Source: a virus
Length of the DNA: 21,339 nt
Strand: one strand, 5' to 3'
IMG/VR virus record: IMGVR_UViG_3300021960_000618
Coordinates: 1 to 21,339 of that record
Position 1 is the stretch's first letter. The number at the start of each line of letters is the position of its first letter. Both the position numbers and the translations under genes were made by a program. Positions 1,934 to 20,371 of this stretch are shown one piece after another. The notes beneath the pieces are model-generated. The model was not told the DNA's origin. It was given only the letters and a program-made list of their open reading frames with translations, and made no database searches.

Positions 1934-2683
1934 ATGGGTATTATTTCAAATGGAAATACAGTAATCGATAATGGCGCAATTGATGCAAACGAAGTAGACA
2001 CTACTCAAATTGCTAATGATGCGGTAACTGCTGACAAGTTAGCAAATACTGCAGTTACTGCGGGATCTTACACAACAGCTGACATTACGGTTGATGCTCA
2101 AGGTAGAGTTACTGCTGCTTCATCTGGACAAGCTGGTGGTGGAAATATGCTTTTTAATTTTTATGCTACTAGCAGTGGTACTTATACTGCGCCTGCTAAT
2201 ACAAACAAAGCACATGTATACATACAAGGGGGAGGCGGAGGTGGTGCCGGTGCAAACCAACAACGTTCTGCTGGACCGGGAGGAGCCGGAGGCTACGGAG
2301 TGTTTCCATTAGATGTAACACCAAATACAGCTTACCCTTACTCGATTGGAAATGGTGGAAGCGGTGGAAACGGATCAACTAACTCATCTAATCCAGGTAA
2401 CCCAGGCAATGCATCTAATTTTTCTAACTTAGCAACTTCAAACGGAGGTGGCGGAAGAGCTGCTGTGCCTTACAACAATAATGCAGGACCAGGTACTGAT
2501 GGTACTGTTCCAGGAGGTATTCCTTTTGCACCTATTGGATACGCACCGTATCCACCAGGATCAAGGAATTTTTATGGTATGCTAGGAAGAGGCCATGGAG
2601 GAGCCGCAGGGAATACACCAGGTGGAAGCGGTGGAAGCGGTGAAGGTGGTGGTATATTTATTTTTGACAACAGTGACGTATAG
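1934..2683 (+). CDS. Glycine-rich tail adhesin-like protein
   Basis: A 249-residue protein in three zones. Residues 1-70 contain a fibre linker motif (AIDANEVDTTQIANDAVTAD, then T-V-D-A-Q-G-R-V-T-A-A). Residues 72-115 form a short beta segment (LFNFYATSSGTYTAPANTNK, then V-Y-I-Q) leading into runs of glycine. Residues 95-240 are dominated by Gly, Asn, Ser and Pro, with GGGGGGAG, GPGGAGGYG, NPGNPGN and GGSGGSGEGGG. Such glycine-rich domains are known at the tips of T4-like and Salmonella phage S16-like adhesins, where polyglycine helices pack together and connecting loops bind the receptor. A host-recognition role is therefore likely but not proven. It ends in a hydrophobic tail (IFIFDNSDV). 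The start is ATG with GGAG at 1924-1927. It is followed at once by the unknown 144-residue gene. Confidence 0.8.
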   Translation: MGIISNGNTVIDNGAIDANEVDTTQIANDAVTADKLANTAVTAGSYTTADITVDAQGRVTAASSGQAGGGNMLFNFYATSSGTYTAPANTNKAHVYIQGGGGGGAGANQQRSAGPGGAGGYGVFPLDVTPNTAYPYSIGNGGSGGNGSTNSSNPGNPGNASNFSNLATSNGGGGRAAVPYNNNAGPGTDGTVPGGIPFAPIGYAPYPPGSRNFYGMLGRGHGGAAGNTPGGSGGSGEGGGIFIFDNSDV

Positions 2684-2691
2684 GAAAAATT

Positions 2692-3126
2692 ATGGCATAT
2701 ATTATAACTTCAGATGACATAAAAACAAATGTATCAGGAATAGCAGCAACTGAATCTGCTAGAGATAACATGGATATGGCACTACAATGTGTTGCTCACG
2801 AGATAGGTGAGGCTGAGTTTAATAATTTAAAAAATAACACTAAAAGAGTAAGTGATCATGATGGCACTAATTTTGTTTATGTAGATATGATAACAGAATT
2901 TACAGAAGAGAATAATTTAAAAACGTATCTAGATATAAAAAGTAAAGCTATATCTCAAATTATAAAAAAATATCCAGATCATCCAGATATGACTATTTGG
3001 ACAACGTACAAAAATTTAGTAGACAATTACGATACGTCAACAGTAACTTTTCCTTTAACCACAAGTTGGGAAAAATATTGTGAAGATAATTCAATAGATT
3101 ATTTTAATTTATTAGAACTACCTTAA
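2692..3126 (+). CDS. Hypothetical protein, 144 residues
   Basis: I do not recognise this protein. It is mixed helix and strand, acidic overall, with no signal peptide or membrane segment. Visible patches are an N-terminal AYIITSDDIKTNVSGIA, a central helical region with A-L-Q-C-V-A-H-E-I-G-E-A-E-F, and a C-terminal W-E-K-Y-C-E-D-N-S-I-D-Y-F. It follows the glycine-rich adhesin by eight bases, with an AGGA site overlapping the previous stop codon, and is the last gene before the largest gap in this part of the window. A fibre assembly or attachment role would suit the position, but this is only a guess from neighbours. A. T content rises sharply after this gene. Confidence 0.75.
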   Translation: MAYIITSDDIKTNVSGIAATESARDNMDMALQCVAHEIGEAEFNNLKNNTKRVSDHDGTNFVYVDMITEFTEENNLKTYLDIKSKAISQIIKKYPDHPDMTIWTTYKNLVDNYDTSTVTFPLTTSWEKYCEDNSIDYFNLLELP

Positions 3127-3170: not shown

Positions 3171-3911
3171 ATGCATGAGAAAATAATTAAGTTTAGTGCG
3201 CATAAAGGTTATCTTAAATTTAACGAAGAATTACCAAAGTTAATTAAATTAAATATACCTGATTGGTTTAAAAAACTAGAGCATAATATAGAGAAAAAAA
3301 CTGTTAAAGGTTGTATTCCTTTTTTACAAACTTTAACTTATGGTTATGTTCTTACCCTACCTCAAGATTTTTATCTAAAACATAATAGTTTTAATAAAGA
3401 TGAGATAAAAACTACGTTAACAGCTTCTTTTGAAAGTGATTTTGGTTACAATTTAAATGTAAAAGATAGACAGGAACAGCATACCACAATACAAACAGAA
3501 GGGTCTTCTTATAATAAAAAGAATAGCAATTTGCCTATTAATAAATTTTTAAATCCTTGGTTGATTAAAACACCTCCAGGATATTCTTGTCTTTTTGTTC
3601 CTCCGTTAAATAACACAGATGACAGGTTTTCAATAATACCTGGTATTGTAGATACAGACACTTTTCCACTATACATTAATTTTCCATTTATTGTAAACGG
3701 AGATAAGCATCCTGTTTTAGATACTCAATTAAAAAAAGGAACTCCTTATGTTCAAATAATTCCTTTTAAAAGAGATTCATGGAAAATGGATATAGGTGAA
3801 ATAAAAGAAAATGATGAAAGTAATCTTTGGTGGAAAAAAGGTAAATATTTTTTAAATATGTTACATAATTACAAAAATTTATTTTGGAATAAAAAAACAA
3901 CTTGGAAATAA
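3171..3911 (+). CDS. DUF6065-like phage protein
   Basis: A 246-residue soluble protein. Its pattern resembles a family I know from cyanophages and other marine phages (DUF6065): an early P-D-W-F-K segment, then T-V-K-G-C-I-P-F with a following G-Y-V-L-T-L-P-Q-D-F near residues 44-66, then N-P-W-L-I-K-T-P-P-G-Y-S-C-L-F-V-P-P near 128-145, a D-R-F-S-I-I-P-G-I-V-D-T-D-T segment and an I-N-F-P-F-I-V strand near 168-174. No biochemical activity is established for the family as far as I know. It commonly occurs beside 2OG oxygenase genes, as here, where it leads a block of five more genes spaced by 1 to 12 bases or overlapping. A partner or substrate-related role for those enzymes is inference. The start is the first ATG after the gap and has no strong Shine-Dalgarno site. 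Confidence 0.75.
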   Translation: MHEKIIKFSAHKGYLKFNEELPKLIKLNIPDWFKKLEHNIEKKTVKGCIPFLQTLTYGYVLTLPQDFYLKHNSFNKDEIKTTLTASFESDFGYNLNVKDRQEQHTTIQTEGSSYNKKNSNLPINKFLNPWLIKTPPGYSCLFVPPLNNTDDRFSIIPGIVDTDTFPLYINFPFIVNGDKHPVLDTQLKKGTPYVQIIPFKRDSWKMDIGEIKENDESNLWWKKGKYFLNMLHNYKNLFWNKKTTWK

Positions 3912-3912
3912 A

Positions 3913-4455
3913 ATGCAAACAGATTTACTACCAGAAAATATTGAAAGCATTAAAAATAACAAAGTAACTTTTGTTAAAAATTTTGCTACTATAGAAAATA
4001 CATATGACCTTAATTTATTGTTTTCTTTTTTAGAAAAATTAGACATACCCGTTCATTATAAAAAAAATAATTTTGAACCAGAAAAAGAAAAAGAAAAAGA
4101 ATTTAATTTTTTAGAAAAAGTTTTTCAAATATCTAATGTAAGTCATTTTTTTCCAGACTTTCAGTTTTTAAAAAGTTTTTTAGAACAAGTCTTTAAATAC
4201 CCTGCTCATCCTAGAGATGGAACTGACATTTTTTTTAGTTTAAAAAGTATTGCTGGAATAAGTCATGAAGATATAGAGGATGTTTTTATAATTGGTCTAA
4301 GTGGTACTGTGGTATATAACGTATTTCAAGAAGAAACAAATCACTATGAAATTAATAAGGGAGACTTGATATATATACCAAAAGGTATTAGACATAAAGT
4401 AATTGGGTTGTCACCAAGAATAACTCTTTCAATAGGTTTTTACAATGAAAAATAA
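3913..4455 (+). CDS. JmjC/ribosomal-oxygenase-like cupin, putative Fe(II)/2OG enzyme
   Basis: A 180-residue protein whose C-terminal 70 residues form a cupin. Residues 117-136 (SHEDIEDVFIIGLSGTVVYN) carry H118-x-D120 followed by D-V-F-I-I-x-x-L-S-G, the pattern of the Fe-binding strand in JmjC-type ribosomal oxygenases such as YcfD/RoxA. Residues 150-161 match cupin motif 2 exactly: G-D-L-I-Y-I-P-K-G-I-R-H, with H161 as the distal iron ligand. The N-terminal half has a Lys/Glu-rich linker (near 55-63) and predicted helices. YcfD has about 370 residues, so this is a very short version without the dimerisation and winged-helix parts. It starts one base after the DUF6065-like stop and overlaps the next gene by 11 bases. 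Hydroxylase activity and substrate are inferred; a non-2OG cupin is possible. Confidence 0.75.
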   Translation: MQTDLLPENIESIKNNKVTFVKNFATIENTYDLNLLFSFLEKLDIPVHYKKNNFEPEKEKEKEFNFLEKVFQISNVSHFFPDFQFLKSFLEQVFKYPAHPRDGTDIFFSLKSIAGISHEDIEDVFIIGLSGTVVYNVFQEETNHYEINKGDLIYIPKGIRHKVIGLSPRITLSIGFYNEK

Positions 4456-5026
4456 ACTTTCTGATTATATTTGTATATATGATAATGTTCTTGGTAATAA
4501 AAAAAATAATGTTTTAAGTAGATTGTTGACACAAAATATTTTCCCATTTAAACCAGCTGGAGTTTTTTCAGAGGGTGGTGGCCAACTAGTAGATAAAACA
4601 ATTAGAAACACAGAAAAATTTTCTTTAGATAATATTACTGAAAAAAGTAATACTATAATTCATTACACAAATCTTTTTTGTTCTTGTTTACATCATTATA
4701 TAAAAATATATGCTAAAGATATTAATATGATTTTAGATTGTAATGTAAGTGATATGCAAATTTTAAAGTATAAAGTTGGAGGTTTTTACAAAGAACATAT
4801 TGATTCAGGACGTTATTCTCCTAGAACATTAAGTTTTATCTACTTAGTTAATGAAGATTACAAAGGAGGAGAATTAGTTATGGAATTGCCAAAAATAAAA
4901 GAAACCATACCAATAGAAGTTAAAAAAGATAGATTAATTATTTGGCCTAGTAATTTTATGTATCCACATAAAGTTTTACCTGTAACAAAAGGAATAAAAT
5001 ATTCGGTGGTAGCATGGGCATTATAG
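4445..5026 (+). CDS. 2OG-Fe(II) oxygenase, prolyl 4-hydroxylase type
   Basis: A 193-residue protein covering a complete single-domain P4H-like double-stranded beta helix. The iron triad is visible: H118 and D120 in Y-K-E-H-I-D-S-G, and H175 in Y-P-H-K-V-L-P-V. The 2OG-binding basic residue is K185, ten residues after the distal His, as in prolyl hydroxylases. The intervening T-L-S-F-I-Y-L-V-N-E-D-Y-K-G-G-E-L (128-144) and R-L-I-I-W-P-S-N (163-170) match the family strands well. The family uses O2 and 2-oxoglutarate to hydroxylate prolines or other side chains of proteins and occasionally other molecules. It overlaps the cupin gene by 11 bases and the next oxygenase by 13, so translation is probably coupled. 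Fold and chemistry are well supported; the substrate is not known. Confidence 0.88.
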   Translation: MKNKLSDYICIYDNVLGNKKNNVLSRLLTQNIFPFKPAGVFSEGGGQLVDKTIRNTEKFSLDNITEKSNTIIHYTNLFCSCLHHYIKIYAKDINMILDCNVSDMQILKYKVGGFYKEHIDSGRYSPRTLSFIYLVNEDYKGGELVMELPKIKETIPIEVKKDRLIIWPSNFMYPHKVLPVTKGIKYSVVAWAL

Positions 5027-5595
5027 GCAAAGATTTTAAATACATAGCAGTAAAAAATTTTATTGATGATAGTGTAATAAAAATTTTAGAGACTTATACT
5101 AATATGAATCACAGACTTAATTTAAGACCTTATCCCCAAGACCATAAAATGAATAATTATGAAACAGGTATTTATGGAGATAGGTTAATGGAATCAATTA
5201 TGTTAAATAAACAATCTCATGTAGAAAAAATAACTGGTAAAAAACTATTACCAACTTATTCTTATTGGAGAATGTATACAAATTTAGGAACTTTACCAAA
5301 ACATCATGATAGAGAGTCTTGTGAAATATCTGTATCATTTAATATAGCAACTAAAGGAGAAGATTGGCCAATATATATGGATGGAAAGCCTGTTTACACT
5401 AAACCAGGTGATGCTGTTATATATTTAGGTGAAAAAATTAAACACTACAGAAAAGAATTTAAAGGAGACTATTCTACACAATGCTTTCTACATTATGTAG
5501 ATAAAGATGGTCCTTATGTTGAGTTTGCTAAAGATAAAAGAGCTTATTATGGGTTAAATAAAACAAATCATTTAAAAGTAAAAATAAATAGATAG
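5014..5595 (+). CDS. 2OG-Fe(II) oxygenase-like protein, second type
   Basis: A 193-residue protein resembling another 2OG oxygenase group common in marine phages. Residues 82-110 contain Y-S-Y-W-R-M-Y followed by L-P-K-H-H-D-R-E-S-C-E-I-S-V-S-F-N, with H97-x-D99 as the first two iron ligands. G-D-A-V-I-Y-L-G (132-139) leads into the distal H144 in K-H-Y-R-K-E-F, and Q-C-F-L-H-Y-V-D (156-163) closes the core. The conserved Arg two residues after the distal His and the Q-x-F-L-H-Y strand are typical of this group. It differs clearly from the upstream P4H-type enzyme, so the two are not a recent duplication. It overlaps the previous gene by 13 bases and is 8 bases from the next. Substrate unknown; the ligand set looks intact. 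Confidence 0.8.
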   Translation: MGIIGKDFKYIAVKNFIDDSVIKILETYTNMNHRLNLRPYPQDHKMNNYETGIYGDRLMESIMLNKQSHVEKITGKKLLPTYSYWRMYTNLGTLPKHHDRESCEISVSFNIATKGEDWPIYMDGKPVYTKPGDAVIYLGEKIKHYRKEFKGDYSTQCFLHYVDKDGPYVEFAKDKRAYYGLNKTNHLKVKINR

Positions 5596-5603
5596 GAGAC
5601 AAA

Positions 5604-5804
5604 ATGAAATTTATTCAGAAACAAGATGGAAGTTGTGACTTAACTTTTTCTGAAACCGAAATTAAAACATTAAATGAAACAAAAAAAATATCTTTTACTG
5701 CAGAAGGATTAAAATATTTTAGTAATGATTTAGTGAGAATGGTTGTGAATTTTAATGAATTGTTTAGTGAAGAAATTCAAAAAAAAACTAACTCGGATGA
5801 TTGA
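5604..5804 (+). CDS. Small phage protein, 66 residues
   Basis: A 66-residue protein with no known function. The pattern L-T-F-S-E-T-E-I, L-N-E-T-K-K-I-S-F-T and L-K-Y-F-S-N-D-L-V-R-M-V-V-N-F suggests a short beta hairpin followed by an amphipathic helix. I have a general recollection of similar proteins in marine phages near oxygenase genes, but no name for them. The start is supported by a strong AGGAGA site (5595-5600) four to nine bases upstream. Its stop overlaps the next start in a TGATG, so both genes are probably translated as a coupled pair. It may be an accessory subunit of the oxygenase block; this is inference from position only. Confidence 0.75.
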   Translation: MKFIQKQDGSCDLTFSETEIKTLNETKKISFTAEGLKYFSNDLVRMVVNFNELFSEEIQKKTNSDD

Positions 5805-6265
5805 TGTATTCTTGTGAAAATAATTATTTAAATAACATAGAGAATAAACAAATACTTAGTGTTCTAAAAAATAAATTTCCTTGGTATCTATCTGAAAGGG
5901 ATAGTTTTTTAAGTCATATTGTAGTTTTTGATGATAAAATGGTAAGTACTTTTTATGGTTTAATAGAACCTTTTCAAAAGAAAATTAAAAAACAAATAAA
6001 TCAAGCTGTTTTTTATATGATACTAAATGATAGTACTAGTAAAAAAGTTATAGATAATTCAGAAAATATGTATAAGGAAAATAATTTTTTAAAACTTATA
6101 TATCATATTGATAGCTCTGACGGATACACTGAGATTTGTTCACAAGAGAAAATACCTCACACACAAAACAGATCAATTATAATAGATAATCAACTTAATA
6201 CAGGTGAGTTTAACCCAATAAAATCAAGAACCAGTCTTATACTCAAGCTACTATTCAAAAAATAG
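5804..6265 (+). CDS. Degenerate 2OG-oxygenase-fold protein, probable pseudoenzyme
   Basis: A 153-residue protein. I start it at ATG 5804, which overlaps the previous TGA by one base (TGATG); a TTG three bases upstream is possible but less likely. The second half follows the layout of a phage 2OG oxygenase group with strands of the type I-Y-Y-V-N-T-N-N-G-Y-T, a turn, V-E-N-R-x-x-I-F, then a distal H-S-G and an R-x-V-I-N-F. Here the strands are I-Y-H-I-D-S-S-D-G-Y-T-E-I (99-111), T-Q-N-R-S-I-I-I (120-127), then N132-T-G where the His is expected, and S-R142-T-S-L-I-L. The expected HxD loop (about 88-95) reads E-N-M-Y-K-E-N-N, without His. H101-x-D103 exists but lies in a different strand by this alignment. 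So the fold and Arg are kept while the metal ligands appear lost. The frame is intact, which argues for selection. Homology is judged by eye. Confidence 0.65.
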   Translation: MYSCENNYLNNIENKQILSVLKNKFPWYLSERDSFLSHIVVFDDKMVSTFYGLIEPFQKKIKKQINQAVFYMILNDSTSKKVIDNSENMYKENNFLKLIYHIDSSDGYTEICSQEKIPHTQNRSIIIDNQLNTGEFNPIKSRTSLILKLLFKK

Positions 6266-6287: not shown

Positions 6288-8429
6288 ATGCCTTTAACAA
6301 ATATACAAATAGCACCAGGCTTTAATAAACAAGTAACTGAAACAGGCGCAAAAGGTCAATGGACTGATGGCGATTTTGTTAGGTTTAGATATGGCCTTCC
6401 TGAAAAAATTGGTGGTTGGGAACAGATAACAGATAAAACATTGTTAGGAAAAGTAACAGAACAAATGATTTGGGCTGACTTAGATGGTAATAAATATGTA
6501 GCATTAGGGACAAACAGAACTTTAATCATTTATTATGAAGGTGCTTTTTATGATATTACTCCACTAGATACTGCAATTACTGGATGTACTTTTACTACGG
6601 TTAATACATCAGCTACAGTTACCGTAAATAAAGTAGGACATGGATTATCTGCAGGAGATTTATTTACTTTTACATCTGTAACTCCTCCGGTAGGAGCAGG
6701 TTATACAGCAGCAAATTTTACTGACAATTCTTTTGAAGTGGTTACTGCACCAACTATAGACACTTTTACTATTACTATGGCATCTAACGCAGGAACCTCT
6801 GTTGCTGCAAGTGGGTCTGCAACAGTTAATCCTTACATTAAACCAGGACCATTAACTCAGAGTTATGGTTATGGTTGGGGAACTTCTTCATGGGGAGGAG
6901 CTTCAGGATTAATAAATACCTTAAATGGTTTACTACAAGATGATACAGCAGGTACTGGAGGATCTGGAACCTCAATTACTCTAACCTCCACTGCAGGTTT
7001 TCCTACAACTGGAACAATAAAAGTAGGTGCAGAATTTATTTCTTACACTGGGGTATCGAGCAATGATTTAACTGGAATTACTAGAGGAGCAGGTGGCACA
7101 AGATCTGCACACGCAAGTGGAGCTAGTGTAGAATATTATACATCATGGGGACAAGCATCTCTTTCTTCTTCAGTAACACTAGATCCAGCAACATGGTCTC
7201 TTGATCATTTTGGACAAAAACTAGTTTGCACTATTAAAAATGGTAAAATTTTTAATTGGGATCCTATTACAGTAACTCCTACAGCCTTACAAACAAGAGC
7301 TACAGTTATATCAAATGCACCTACAACTTCTGTTATGTCTATTATTTCAGAAAGAGACAGACATTTAATTGTTCTTGGAACTGAAACAACAGTTGGTGAT
7401 GCATCAACACAAGATAAAATGTTTATAAGATTTTCAGATCAAGAAACATTAAATGATTTTCAACCTACTTCAGTAAATACTGCGGGTACTTTTAGAATTG
7501 ATTCTGGAGTTAAAATAGTAGGTGCAGCAAAAGCTAAAGATTATATTTTAATTGTAACAGACACTTCTGCATATGTTATGCAGTTTGTTGGTCCTCCTTT
7601 TATTTTTTCTATAAGACAGGTTGGAAGTAATTGTGGATTAATTGGTCAACATGCAATCAAGTATATCAATGGTAGAGTTTGGTGGATGGGACAAGCAGGT
7701 GGTTTTTTTGTGTACGATGGTACAGTTAAATCTGTTCCATGTTTAGTTGAAGATTTTGTATTTACAAATAACGGAGATAACTTAGGTATTAATTATAATG
7801 CAGGTGAAACAGTATATGCTGGTCTTAACCATTTGTATGAAGAGGTAATGTGGTTCTATCCTAAAGCAGGTTCTGATGAACCAGATAGAGTAGTGACTTA
7901 CAATTATGGTGAGAACACTTGGGCAACAGGTTCTTTAGCTAGAACTTCTTGGCATGATTCAACTCTTTTTGATAATCCTTATGCTTCTGAATATGCTCCT
8001 ACAGGATTACCTACTTTCCCTGTTATTCAAGGTGTAACAAATGCAAATGGTTCATCGACATATTACGCACACGAAATTGGAAACAATGAAGTAGACTCTG
8101 CAGGTAATAAAACAGTTATACCTGCTTTTATACAATCTGGAGATTTTGATTTAAGTGAGGGTGATGTATTTATTAGTATGAGAAGATTTATACCTGATTT
8201 TAAATTACTTACAGGCAATGCACAGATTACTATTAACCTTAGAAACTATTCTAATGATACCTCTGCATCCTCTCCTTTAGGACCTTTTACAGTTACGACT
8301 TCCACAGACAAAGTAGATACAAGAGCTAGAGGGCGATCAGCTAGTCTAAAGATAGCTAATACAGCTACTGATGAAAGCTGGAGATATGGTACCTTTAGAG
8401 CAGATATACAACCTGATGGACGTAGATAA
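6288..8429 (+). CDS. Large phage virion protein, probably tail/neck structural
   Basis: A 713-residue protein. The N-terminus has P-L-T-N-I-Q-I-A-P-G-F-N-K-Q and then G-Q-W-T-D-G-D-F-V-R-F-R-Y-G-L-P-E-K-I-G-G-W (24-45), a block shared by many marine and podovirus-type phages in structural regions. It is followed by a Thr/Gly-rich insert (about 110-290), where A-G-F-P-T-T-G-T-I-K-V-G-x-E-F-I-S-Y-T-G (about 235-256) is a small beta module seen in virion proteins. Recurrent segments such as R-D-R-H-L-I-V-L-G (356-364), W-W-M-G-Q-A-G-G-F-F-V-Y-D-G (464-477) and V-M-W-F-Y-P are blade-like strands suggesting a beta-propeller, as in tail stabilisation or needle-adaptor proteins of the P22 gp10 kind. 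The propeller reading is inference. It ends in a TAATG overlap with the next small gene. There are no enzyme motifs. Confidence 0.75.
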   Translation: MPLTNIQIAPGFNKQVTETGAKGQWTDGDFVRFRYGLPEKIGGWEQITDKTLLGKVTEQMIWADLDGNKYVALGTNRTLIIYYEGAFYDITPLDTAITGCTFTTVNTSATVTVNKVGHGLSAGDLFTFTSVTPPVGAGYTAANFTDNSFEVVTAPTIDTFTITMASNAGTSVAASGSATVNPYIKPGPLTQSYGYGWGTSSWGGASGLINTLNGLLQDDTAGTGGSGTSITLTSTAGFPTTGTIKVGAEFISYTGVSSNDLTGITRGAGGTRSAHASGASVEYYTSWGQASLSSSVTLDPATWSLDHFGQKLVCTIKNGKIFNWDPITVTPTALQTRATVISNAPTTSVMSIISERDRHLIVLGTETTVGDASTQDKMFIRFSDQETLNDFQPTSVNTAGTFRIDSGVKIVGAAKAKDYILIVTDTSAYVMQFVGPPFIFSIRQVGSNCGLIGQHAIKYINGRVWWMGQAGGFFVYDGTVKSVPCLVEDFVFTNNGDNLGINYNAGETVYAGLNHLYEEVMWFYPKAGSDEPDRVVTYNYGENTWATGSLARTSWHDSTLFDNPYASEYAPTGLPTFPVIQGVTNANGSSTYYAHEIGNNEVDSAGNKTVIPAFIQSGDFDLSEGDVFISMRRFIPDFKLLTGNAQITINLRNYSNDTSASSPLGPFTVTTSTDKVDTRARGRSASLKIANTATDESWRYGTFRADIQPDGRR

Positions 8430-9058: not shown

Positions 9059-9252
9059 GTGAACCAATTAAAATACCCGCAACAGCGACCGAAATTGTCA
9101 AACATAAAAGAACAGGAAAAGTATATGCTGATAAAGCTGAGTTTGATGCTGATGTTGCTGACCCCAACACTGACACTACTGTGGATGATTTTAGGCAAGA
9201 CCTTGAAATCAAAGTTACTAAGGTTTCTATGGGTGCGCAAACCAAAAAATAA
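9055..9252 (+). CDS. Small phage protein, 65 residues
   Basis: A 65-residue protein beginning MSEPIKIPATATEIVKHKRT with the central G-K-V-Y-A-D-K-A-E-F-D-A-D-V-A-D-P-N-T-D-T-T-x-x-D-F-R-Q-D, and ending in a beta strand (L-E-I-K-V-T-K-V). This sequence, with H-K-R-T-G-K-x-Y directly before an acidic stretch, is one I know from many marine phages, usually without a function. It is charge-segregated: a basic N-terminal third, an acidic middle and a basic end. The start has a strong AAGGAG site at 9043-9048 and overlaps the previous stop (ATGA); the stop overlaps the next start (TAATG, 9250-9254). Three minus-strand readings and one alternative plus frame across this segment have no such support. 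Confidence 0.8.
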   Translation: MSEPIKIPATATEIVKHKRTGKVYADKAEFDADVADPNTDTTVDDFRQDLEIKVTKVSMGAQTKK

Positions 9253-10187
9253 TGAAACCTAGAGGGGCCACTGAGCTACAAATGGAAATGCTTCAAAAGC
9301 ATGTTTCCAAAGAACTACTAGATCAAGTACAGATATGCACATCTATACCTGGTAAAGTCCCAATAGACCCAAATAAATTAAATATTCTTTGGCAAAAAAA
9401 TTCATATGATCAACCTAATCTACAAGAGTTCTTTACTAATAAAGAAAGACATAAAGAATATGATTGGTATGTATTTAACAGTCATTGGAATTATGAAAAA
9501 TTTAGAATGGTGTTTGATATACCAACTGAAAAATCTATAGTAATTAAAAATGGTATTGATAATTTTCCAATTAGAAAGATATACAAAAGGGGAGATCCTA
9601 TTAAGTTAATACACCATTGTACTCCTTGGAGAGGTTTAAATGTTTTATTACGTGCTATGCAAGAAATTGAAAATCCAAATATAAAACTGGATGTATATAG
9701 TTCTTGTAAGGTTTATGGCTCTGAGTTTGCAAAGAATACTGACAAAGACTTTGAAGCGTTGTACGAACAAGCTAAAAAATTACCTAATGTAAATTACATT
9801 GGTTATAAACCTAATGAATATATTACAGAAGTAATGCCTAATTATGATATGTTTGTTTACCCATCTATATTTGAAGAAACATCATGTGCATCTGCTTTAG
9901 AGGCTTTAGCTTCTGGTGTTCATGTAATTACTAATAATTTTGGAGCTTTGTATGAAACATGTGCAGAGTGGCCAGTATACGTTAACTATTCAAAAAACTA
10001 CGAACAAATGGCACAGGACACTGCGGGAGCAATTAATATAGCTGCTAATTATTTACATGAAGATTATATACAAGAACATTTAGAAGAACAACAAAAGTTT
10101 TATAAAAGATTTTACAATTGGCAAAAAAAAGGTATAGAGTGGACAAACTTTTTGAAAGGAGCTTTAAATGAAAGAAACAGTAAATGA
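9252..10187 (+). CDS. Glycosyltransferase, GT-B fold (GT4-like)
   Basis: A 311-residue protein. The C-terminal Rossmann domain is clear: I-K-L-I-H-H-C-T-P-W-R-G-L-N-V-L-L-R-A (117-135), where GT4 enzymes have the nucleotide-sugar binding loop, then I-K-L-D-V-Y-S-S (144-151), N-V-N-Y-I-G-Y-K (179-186), and Y-D-M-F-V-Y-P-S-I-F-E-E-T-S-C-A-S-A-L-E-A-L-A-S-G-V. The last holds the E-x7-E motif (E209, E217) that contacts the sugar nucleotide. The N-terminal domain is short compared with the 360-400 residues usual for GT4, but keeps a shortened R-G-A-T-E start and a W-Y-V-F-N-S-H-W-N strand. It probably transfers a sugar from an NDP-sugar in the host cytoplasm. It overlaps the next glycosyltransferase by 20 bases. 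Acceptor unknown: phage DNA, virion protein or host glycan are all possible. Confidence 0.88.
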   Translation: MKPRGATELQMEMLQKHVSKELLDQVQICTSIPGKVPIDPNKLNILWQKNSYDQPNLQEFFTNKERHKEYDWYVFNSHWNYEKFRMVFDIPTEKSIVIKNGIDNFPIRKIYKRGDPIKLIHHCTPWRGLNVLLRAMQEIENPNIKLDVYSSCKVYGSEFAKNTDKDFEALYEQAKKLPNVNYIGYKPNEYITEVMPNYDMFVYPSIFEETSCASALEALASGVHVITNNFGALYETCAEWPVYVNYSKNYEQMAQDTAGAINIAANYLHEDYIQEHLEEQQKFYKRFYNWQKKGIEWTNFLKGALNERNSK

Positions 10188-11046
10188 GGATACTTATCAA
10201 ACTTTAAAAGAAGTTGAGGTAACATCATATGAAAAAGCTTCTACTCCTATGTGGAAACCGGCCACCGAAAAGAAAGAAAAAAAAATAGTTAAATCACCTT
10301 ACAGCATTATGATTTGTACCCCTTGTCATAGTGAGGTAACTATGCATTACACACAAGCTCTTTTAGAATTACAACAACTTTGTATAAAAAAAGGAATAAG
10401 GATTACTTTTACTTTGTTAAAATCTTCTTTAGTAACTCAAGGAAGAAATTTATGTACTTCAGCTTTTTTAGAATCTAGTTGTACACATATGGTTTTTATA
10501 GATTCAGATATCTATTTTAGAGCAGAGTCTATTATTAAAATGCTAGATTTAGATAAAGAATTAATATCTATTCCATATCCTCTTAAAACAATGATGTGGG
10601 ATAAACTTTATAAAAAATGGAGTGAAGGTGAAGTAAAAAACCCTAGGGATATTCATAGATTCTTAAATACTTATCCAATGAAAGTACAAGACGTTAATAA
10701 CATAACTTTAGATAGTGGTGTTATGGAAGTTACACACAGTCCTACAGGATGTATGATGATTAAAAGAAGTGTATTTGACAAAATGATAGACAAGTATCCA
10801 GATAAAAACATAGTACAAAAGACAATAATAAATGGTGAGTATGTAGATAGACCTAATTTATGGAACTTTTTTGATTGTATACATGACCCTGATACTAAGA
10901 CTTATATGGGTGAAGACTTTTCCTTCTGTAAGCTTTGGAAGGACATTGGGGGGAAATGTTATGCTTATGTTAATGACCCTATTATACATGTTGGAGAACA
11001 CCAATATGAAGGTCGTTTTCTTGATGAGTTGAAACTAGCCAAGTAA
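10168..11046 (+). CDS. Glycosyltransferase-like protein, GT-A fold
   Basis: A 292-residue protein with GT-A features. After a charged 45-residue N-terminal extension comes Y-S-I-M-I-C-T-P-C-H-S-E-V (45-57), the nucleotide-binding strand, then Q-G-R-N-L-C-T-S-A-F-L (91-101), a strand with M-V-F-I-D-S-D-I-Y-F (108-117) giving a D112-x-D114 metal-binding motif, P-T-G-C-M-M-I-K-R-S-V-F (192-203), and G-E-D-F-S-F-C (248-254), where the Glu/Asp pair is expected to act in catalysis. H-V-G near 274 is a usual metal-ligand position. The group resembles GT2-like and Anp1-type phage enzymes. The start at ATG 10168 is supported by AAGGAG at 10156-10161, inside the end of the preceding gene. The two enzymes probably act in sequence or on the same acceptor; this is inference. 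Confidence 0.8.
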   Translation: MKETVNEDTYQTLKEVEVTSYEKASTPMWKPATEKKEKKIVKSPYSIMICTPCHSEVTMHYTQALLELQQLCIKKGIRITFTLLKSSLVTQGRNLCTSAFLESSCTHMVFIDSDIYFRAESIIKMLDLDKELISIPYPLKTMMWDKLYKKWSEGEVKNPRDIHRFLNTYPMKVQDVNNITLDSGVMEVTHSPTGCMMIKRSVFDKMIDKYPDKNIVQKTIINGEYVDRPNLWNFFDCIHDPDTKTYMGEDFSFCKLWKDIGGKCYAYVNDPIIHVGEHQYEGRFLDELKLAK

Positions 11047-19855: not shown

Positions 19856-20371
19856 ATGTTTTTTCTTGAAGATAAAAATTTTTTAAATGATGCTCAAAAA
19901 AAATATATAGATGAGTTATTGTTATATGAAAACATGTCTTTTAAGTTAGCAACTCAAGCTGCAGAAGTTGGAGATAACGGGTTTCATTTTATTAATCATA
20001 TACTAAAACTTGAAGAAAAAGAAAAAAATACTTTAAAACAACATGAAAAATTAATTGATATCTTTAGATTTTTTTTACAAAAAAATAAAATTAAATTAAA
20101 TACTCTTTTTAGAGTTGCTATTAATATAACTTTTAATAACGGATTTGTTTATAAATGTCCTATGCATACTGACCATGATTTTGAACACAGACAAGTTATA
20201 CTTTATTTAAATGATGCTGTTGGAGATACAATTATTTGTAATAAAAATAAGGAACCAGTTATAATATCAAAACCAGAAAAGTATAAAGCTATTGTTTTTA
20301 ATAAACAACCTCACTATCATTACTTTCCTAATTATGGTTTACGAGCTATAGCTGTATTTACATTTAATTAA
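19856..20371 (+). CDS. 2OG-Fe(II) oxygenase-like protein, isolated copy
   Basis: A 171-residue protein. Residues 84-121 carry L-F-R-V-A-I-N-I-T-F-N-N-G-F-V-Y-K-C-P-M-H-T-D-H-D-F-E-H-R-Q-V-I-L-Y-L-N-D, with H104-x-D106 as the first iron ligands. A-V-G-D-T-I-I-C (121-128) is the next strand, and K-A-I-V-F-N-K-Q-P-H-Y-H-Y-F-P-N-Y-G-L-R-A-I-A-V-F-T-F (144-170) includes the distal H153 and R163, ten residues later, the 2OG-binding Arg. The ligands look intact. It is distinct from the four oxygenase-fold proteins of the 3.9-6.3 kb block. It follows the nuclease by 5 bases and converges on the helicase, with both stop codons supplied by the 8-base palindrome TTAATTAA (20364-20371). Substrate unknown. 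Confidence 0.8.
   Translation: MFFLEDKNFLNDAQKKYIDELLLYENMSFKLATQAAEVGDNGFHFINHILKLEEKEKNTLKQHEKLIDIFRFFLQKNKIKLNTLFRVAINITFNNGFVYKCPMHTDHDFEHRQVILYLNDAVGDTIICNKNKEPVIISKPEKYKAIVFNKQPHYHYFPNYGLRAIAVFTFN
20364..20371. other. Shared palindromic stop site of convergent genes
   Basis: TTAATTAA is its own reverse complement. Its last three bases are the TAA of the + strand oxygenase-like gene and its first three, read on the - strand, are the TAA of the helicase. The genes therefore overlap by eight bases, and there is no space for a separate bidirectional terminator. Confidence 0.9.

Follow-up and report, generated by a model that had tools for sequence, protein, structure and literature searches.

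A tail-fibre tip exchanged as one piece with a neighbouring oxygenase gene set in an IMG/VR virus: a candidate module for oxidative tip maturation

We analysed a 21,339-base stretch of viral DNA, IMG/VR virus record IMGVR_UViG_3300021960_000618 (positions 1-21,339; hereafter the window), in which six neighbouring genes, named g1 to g6 here, lie between a tail-fibre region and a virion structural gene. A first-pass annotation had described these genes as one oxygenase block. Open reading frames (ORFs) were called mechanically, viral contigs are fragments, and much of the data is metagenomic. All six ORFs were found where the annotation had placed them (Table 1). In order, they are separated by a gap of 1 base, overlaps of 11 and 13 bases, a gap of 8 and an overlap of 4. 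The tight packing that had been reported therefore stands, but not its upper limit of 12 bases. The fibre gene up2 (1934-2683 in full) matches Gly_rich_2 (PF21722) at 38.1 bits against a Pfam cutoff of 24.3. The protein of down has 713 residues and is closest to proteins of the Pelagibacter phages HTVC023P and HTVC027P, and SAR11 is therefore the likely host group of the phage.

Table 1. Features of the fibre tip, the six-gene block and their flanks in the window (2OG, 2-oxoglutarate; AF2, AlphaFold model)
Feature	Coordinates	Strand	Remarks
Fibre gene up2, N-terminal residues 1-79	1934..2170	+	on the backbone side of the boundary
up2, glycine-rich fibre tip (residues 80-249), PF21722 Gly_rich_2	2171..2683	+	probable substrate
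up1, 144-residue tip partner	2692..3126	+	chaperone-like by position only
g1, DUF6065/phrog_7084 protein, predicted dUTPase fold	3171..3911	+	Pfam, PHROG, AF2 model
g2, putative JmjC_2/cupin oxygenase, H118/D120/H161, optional member	3913..4455	+	Pfam; invariant ligands; patchy presence
g3, putative prolyl-4-hydroxylase-type 2OG oxygenase, H118/D120/H175/K185	4445..5026	+	PF13640; invariant ligands
g4, phrog_2954 ('ferrochelatase' label), predicted 2OG-oxygenase fold, H97/D99/H144	5014..5595	+	AF2 model, VIA-align
g5, 66-residue conserved protein	5604..5804	+	32-sequence alignment; only with tip class A
g6, ligand-less member of a phrog_274-like oxygenase family	5801..6265 (start perhaps 5804)	+	graded HxD...H loss
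down, virion structural protein phrog_3287, backbone	6288..8429	+	phrog_3287 at 7.7e-86; downstream limit of the unit

Gene content of the block

Profile searches placed two of the proteins in oxygenase families. g2 matches JmjC_2 at 28.9 bits (Pfam cutoff 22), and its three ligands are invariant in 8/8 relatives; g2 also has R169. It has a weak match to a ribosomal arginine hydroxylase of JmjC_2 type. With an above-cutoff family match and the HxD...H pattern, g2 is predicted to be a JmjC/cupin oxygenase. g3 matches 2OG-FeII_Oxy_3 (PF13640) at 63.4 bits (cutoff 27) and, weakly, chains of PHD2/Egl nine. Its ligands are invariant in 46/46 aligned sequences, and R or K occupies position 185, at +10, in all 46. 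This combination of a double-stranded beta-helix family, HxD...H and a basic residue near +10 points to an Fe(II)/2OG oxygenase.

g4 belongs to no Pfam family and matches phrog_2954, labelled 'ferrochelatase', at 4.7e-47. Its AF2 model (predicted local distance difference test, pLDDT, 91.8) matches 2OG oxygenases along the whole length (Foldseek E 4e-7). VIA-align gave a Z of 14.9 to SnoN, over 172 residues at 3.3 A, and Z of 14.x to PHD2, prolyl 4-hydroxylase (P4H) and vCPH (14.1 for vCPH); the nearest folds include peptidyl-prolyl hydroxylases. Among the matches listed by the two programs there were 2OG oxygenases and their relatives only, and no chelatase fold. H97, D99 and H144 are invariant in 50/50 aligned sequences. 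The model thus predicts a 2OG-oxygenase fold with HxD...H, and the 'ferrochelatase' labels carried by this family in marine phages (phrog_2954, phrog_3531) appear to be wrong. The best phmmer hit in the PDB, a fluoroacetate dehalogenase (E 0.002), was disregarded after the oxygenase fold was found. In the 50 aligned sequences there is no basic 2OG anchor at the usual distance of about +10 from the distal histidine, as positions 154-155 are variable and non-basic. R146, Q156 and H160 are conserved where that anchor is absent, and an alternative 2OG anchor is possible.

The HxD...H triad is absent from the window copy of g6, which is thus not predicted to be an active oxygenase. Homologues in loci L096, L050 (second copy), L069 and L097 keep the triad, and 45 homologues form a graded series from intact to ligand-less. 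The TTG start of g6 is doubtful because its relatives begin one codon downstream. Profile comparison of g6 with g3 and g4 gave no convincing match, and the intact homologues told more. Far outside the block, at 19856-20371 of the window, lies a relative of g6 that is an intact 2OG-type protein (phrog_274; HTD...H...R). phrog_274, which is labelled 'DNA endonuclease V', also contains proteins with the HxD...H pattern. Altogether, the claims of three intact iron-ligand sets of different types and of a ligand-less fourth protein were borne out: the ligands of g2, g3 and g4 are as described and invariant in relatives, two of the families exceed their Pfam cutoffs, and the family of g6 has intact members.

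g1 had been called DUF6065-like. The relationship holds, although the score to DUF6065 (PF19541), 21.9 bits, is below the Pfam gathering cutoff of 26.6: its match to phrog_7084 (4.5e-43) and its bacterial relatives make g1 a clear relative of that family. The AF2 model of g1 (pLDDT 84.8) gave its best VIA-align Z, 10.3, to the dUTPase 2y8c (root-mean-square deviation 2.3 over 119 residues), and the best 50 matches listed were all dUTPases. Sequence-profile search of the PDB with DUF6065/g1 gave no useful hit, dUTPase included. By eye, g1 keeps a motif-III-like GIVDTD and a motif-IV-like GTPYVQ, with D161 and D163 conserved, and not all canonical motif residues are present. g1 resembles the dUTPase/dCTP deaminase superfamily in its predicted fold and in these two motif-like stretches, and differs from it in lacking the full canonical motifs and a PDB sequence match and in a context that is not nucleotide metabolism. 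The dUTPase-fold model rules out g1 as a fifth oxygenase; its role may be enzymatic or that of a trimeric scaffold. The 66-residue protein g5 is indeed conserved, at 66 to about 82 residues in a 32-sequence alignment.

In locus L042 (1512-2256), a frameshift or a sequencing error divides g1 between two overlapping reading frames. Haloviruses carry a DUF6065 homologue; in Halorubrum virus HRTV-2 (L094) the homologue adjoins thymidylate synthase on the margin of the tail module, with no annotated oxygenases. In Devosia, Paracoccus, Rhodobacteraceae and Variovorax, a chromosomal DUF6065 gene is often found at a distance of 12-126 bases from a gene for a secreted (NSSS)n repeat protein (L101, L103, L104, L105, L106 and L112, with L100 at a contig edge). 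Several of these repeat proteins end in poly-Asp, and subtilase or sigma/anti-sigma genes are close by in some cases. The pair looks like an undescribed surface-peptide operon or one resembling those of ribosomally synthesized and post-translationally modified peptides. This adjacency hints that low-complexity polypeptides are targets of the DUF6065 family.

Co-inheritance with the fibre tip

We compared genes across related loci by correlating their pairwise identity matrices (Mantel test with 199 permutations; the counts share loci and are not independent). Two blocks emerged. The backbone genes starting at 110 and 1240 and down, at 6288, are mutually correlated at r 0.73-0.85, and the cassette genes up1, g1, g3, g4, g5 and g6 at r 0.37-0.70. 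Correlations between the blocks are mostly about 0, with a maximum of 0.29. up1 follows the cassette genes (r 0.48-0.63) and not the flanks. up2 behaved as a mixture of both blocks and was therefore predicted to be a chimera and split for testing. Its first 80 residues correlate with genes 110, 1240 and 6288 (r 0.64, 0.86 and 0.55) and not with the cassette (-0.05 to 0.19). In contrast, its last 100 residues, which are glycine-rich, correlate with the cassette (r 0.42-0.59, Mantel p 0.005) and hardly with gene 110, the N-terminus of 1240 or down (r 0.10-0.13); the value for the C-terminus of 1240 is intermediate (0.45). Proximity alone is insufficient to explain this, because g5 and g6 adjoin down and yet correlate with it at only 0.05 and -0.13, whereas the fibre tip about 3 kb away gives 0.49 and 0.50. 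There is thus a recombination boundary inside the fibre gene and a downstream limit before down, as in a host-recognition exchange module. The module, from the glycine-rich C-terminal tip through the 144-residue partner to the end of g6, is exchanged as one piece. Over few loci, two glycosyltransferase genes downstream of down (window 9252-11046) correlate with each other at r 0.60 and show hardly any correlation with the tip or the backbone.

Viral contigs were searched for relatives of g1 and g4, which gave 58 loci with distinct g4. Where the flank sufficed, g3 was present in 49/49, g1 in 46/49, g5 in 49/52 and g6 in 34/52. Because these loci were ranked by g4 similarity, the figures describe close relatives. 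The three missing g5 copies are masked by an overlapping antisense ORF, so counts of g5 are lower bounds. Gene order 1-3-4-5(-6) and the overlaps are kept in about 58 loci (median overlaps 10, 13, 4 and 11 bases). The arrangement is not due to chance, as dozens of distinct loci share the gene order, overlaps included. g2 is optional and patchy, and in some loci it is located near glycosyltransferases instead. The g1-g3-g4-g5 quartet is inverted between otherwise normal flanks in L076, and the oxygenases are inverted in HTVC027P. NodU/TobZ-type carbamoyltransferases occupy the same slot or lie nearby in some relatives (L072, L073, L085, L144, L163, L124), and a sulfotransferase is in or near it in L005/L085. 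The first-pass annotation was right that different families are kept as one functional unit rather than as duplicates, as the co-variation and conserved overlaps of g1, g3, g4, g5 and g6 show. Its fixed block of six did not survive: g2 is optional, g1 is missing in some loci, and the conserved unit begins inside the upstream fibre gene and ends with g6. The co-occurrence survey that it had proposed found the genes kept together in close relatives. Its refuting condition, independent occurrence, holds at larger distance, where lone g4 homologues exist and other tips come with different oxygenase mixes.

For a survey of tips, loci were retrieved by down queries so that the oxygenase block played no part in their selection. 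This gave 76 distinct loci with one backbone, complete from gene 110 to down. Tip class A, that of the window, was found in 51 and other tips in 25; since two of the three down sequences used as queries had been taken from loci known not to have tip A, these are not population frequencies. The other tips are mainly collar-domain tips with a partner of about 125 residues (HTVC027P among these) and a second glycine-rich class. With tip A, g3 and g4 were each present in 51/51 loci, g1 in 41, g5 in 35, and c1, a PF13759 2OG-oxygenase family seen in relatives, in only one; inverted oxygenases were also found once. With other tips the counts were 21/25 for g3, 10/25 for g4, 3/25 for g1, 0/25 for g5, 18/25 for c1 and 17/25 for inversion. 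Fisher p values were 1.1e-8 (g1), 1.2e-9 (g4), 1.5e-9 (g5), 6.5e-11 (c1) and 4.4e-10 (inversion). Relatedness inflates such tests, and tip type was therefore mapped on a tree of down, which gave nine tip-type changes and nine independent pairs with and without tip A. Two pairs were mis-scored, as their tip-negative members, L282 and L300, bear divergent glycine-rich tips on inspection (both keep the original 'no tip' scoring in tables). Over the seven usable switches, g5 switched with the tip in 7/7, g4 and c1 in 6/7 each and g1 in 5/7, never in the opposite direction. The oxygenase set is thus matched to the tip class. A general rule that glycine-rich tips carry the g1/g5 set was rejected, as the second glycine-rich class (L167, L182, L226, L324) carries PF13759 sets.

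A similar layout was seen in other phages, several cyanomyoviruses among them, which were picked from g4 hits and are a non-random sample. A glycine-rich gene precedes an oxygenase cluster with a g4 homologue in S-SM1, P-RSM4, S-SSM5, S-CAM8, ACG-2014g, S-CREM1, syn9, S-RIM44, the Pelagibacter myovirus Mosig, HTVC023P, HTVC033P and 023Pt_psg01. Pfam confirmed Gly_rich_2 in S-CREM1, syn9, S-SM1 and HTVC023P. In S-CREM1 and syn9 the oxygenases are preceded by a partner gene, a tryptophan halogenase, a g1 homologue (profile E 6e-10 and 6e-12, respectively) and a 73-residue gene. The halogenase of the cyanophages S-CREM1, syn9 and S-RIM44 (L334, L335, L342) lies between the tip partner and the g1 homologue and may, to judge from this position, have the fibre tip as its substrate instead of serving in antibiotic synthesis.

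Explanations for the linkage

We favour, at a probability of about 0.6, the explanation that the block makes up the enzymatic half of a module built around the tail-fibre tip, so that a host-recognition module would carry its own matched oxidative-maturation enzymes. The module genes, an overlapping operon, would be expressed late along with those of the virion proteins. As Fe(II)/2OG oxygenases, g3, g4 and the optional g2 would most likely add hydroxyl groups to side chains in the tip, in the simplest form before or during assembly. g1, with its dUTPase-like fold, and g5 would be non-oxygenase accessories, and g6 would be a pseudo-oxygenase, perhaps a substrate holder or partner activator. 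Prominent residues of the tip, which probably contacts the host, are G, A, S, N, T and P, and PG dipeptides number 240 against 152 expected. This excess is compatible with prolyl hydroxylation of the tip and is no demonstration of it.

Several points weigh against tip maturation. Linkage to the tip is no proof that it serves as substrate. g4 lacks the conventional +10 anchor. Lone g4 homologues lie beside DNA-metabolism genes in four cyanophages (P-SSM7, Syn30, S-T4 and ACG-2014f), and so the g4 family has other uses. Glycine-richness itself is not the rule because class B (collar-domain) tips are much less glycine-rich. Furthermore, gp38 of the T-even-like phage S16 is a glycine-rich adhesin with a polyglycine-sandwich tip, at the distal fibre and encoded next to the fibre gene. 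In these respects it resembles the Gly_rich_2 tip, which may be structurally equivalent. Oxygenases are not known with S16-type gp38 adhesins, and tip modification is therefore not generally needed.

The slot behind the tip might instead be a recombination hot spot, in which oxygenases acting on unrelated targets (host ribosome, EF-Tu or metabolites) share nothing but breakpoints with the tip. Exchange is known to concentrate in receptor-binding regions (PMC10579305), oxygenase sets vary, g4 homologues occur alone elsewhere, and the JmjC_2 type of g2 includes the ribosomal arginine hydroxylase that g2 weakly hits. Such hitchhiking is unlikely, however, since sets are predictable from tip class over independent switches, gene order and overlaps are conserved, and a comparable tip-plus-oxygenase layout occurs in other phage groups. 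Tip-specific co-inheritance would also be expected if the enzymes altered a tip-matched host surface molecule for superinfection exclusion or progeny release, like phage O-antigen modification systems, and the carbamoyltransferases and sulfotransferase in or near the slot and the nearby glycosyltransferases would suit this. We consider this quite improbable, as the genes are placed within the virion-gene region, no family match indicates membranes or glycans, and g3 and g4 resemble peptidyl hydroxylases.

Marine phages are rich in 2OG oxygenases, with ten in S-CREM1 and 24 in S-SCSM1 (PMC9964418). Explanations published since 2010 are nitrogen signalling, DNA repair or haem. For this locus, a metabolic takeover would mean that 2OG is drawn down to affect nitrogen signalling, that DNA is repaired, or that a 2OG oxygenase and a ferrochelatase are partners in iron and haem metabolism, as proposed for cyanophages (PMC3037559) and pelagiphages (PMC9599517). 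These readings leave the matching to the tip unpredicted, as they do co-inheritance with half a fibre gene, and the predicted fold of g4 is that of a 2OG oxygenase. We regard them as very improbable here. The same low standing applies to nucleotide or DNA modification, with a dUTPase-like g1, oxygenases acting on bases and phage glycosyltransferases to follow. The predicted fold of g1, its conserved D161/D163 and the halovirus relative beside thymidylate synthase speak for it. On the other side, the oxygenases match P4H/PHD-like and cupin families, g1 is co-inherited with the fibre tip, several bacterial g1 relatives adjoin secreted repeat proteins, and the glycosyltransferases hardly co-vary with the block.

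Related systems and meaning

Nothing relevant on tail-fibre hydroxylation or tip modification was found in the literature searched, with most subscription journals outside its scope. Alteromonas phages A5 and V22 (PMC10579305) have exchangeable host-recognition modules with a cognate chaperone; as here, a fibre tip and a small neighbouring partner pass together from one phage to another, unrelated one. The present module differs in that a dUTPase-fold protein and tip-specific oxygenases belong to it as well; the term 'oxygenase' is nowhere in that paper. vCPH of Paramecium bursaria Chlorella virus-1 is a viral 2OG peptidyl hydroxylase similar to the g4 model and of the same broad P4H type as g3, but it comes from a eukaryotic virus, with no tail fibre and no tip-matched gene set. 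The oxygenase-ferrochelatase pairs of HTVC023P-type pelagiphages, whose co-location was already noted and tied to iron and haem, are almost certainly the same or sister clusters. In the passages covered of the paper describing them (PMC9599517), g4 is taken as a haem enzyme, the oxygenases are judged unfit for phylogeny, and tip linkage, g1, g5 and g6 go undiscussed.

It is about an even bet that oxidative maturation of receptor-binding tips is common among marine phages. Each class of tip would have its own oxygenase set, some with a halogenase or carbamoyltransferase in addition, so that phages would exchange the chemistry of the tip as well as its sequence, and this chemistry may help to set host range. 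If tip maturation is true, the abundant 2OG oxygenases of marine phages would have an alternative explanation in the post-translational finishing of the receptor-binding tip, phage host recognition would have an extra chemical layer, a widespread 'ferrochelatase' label would be corrected, and DUF6065 would gain a predicted fold and a context.

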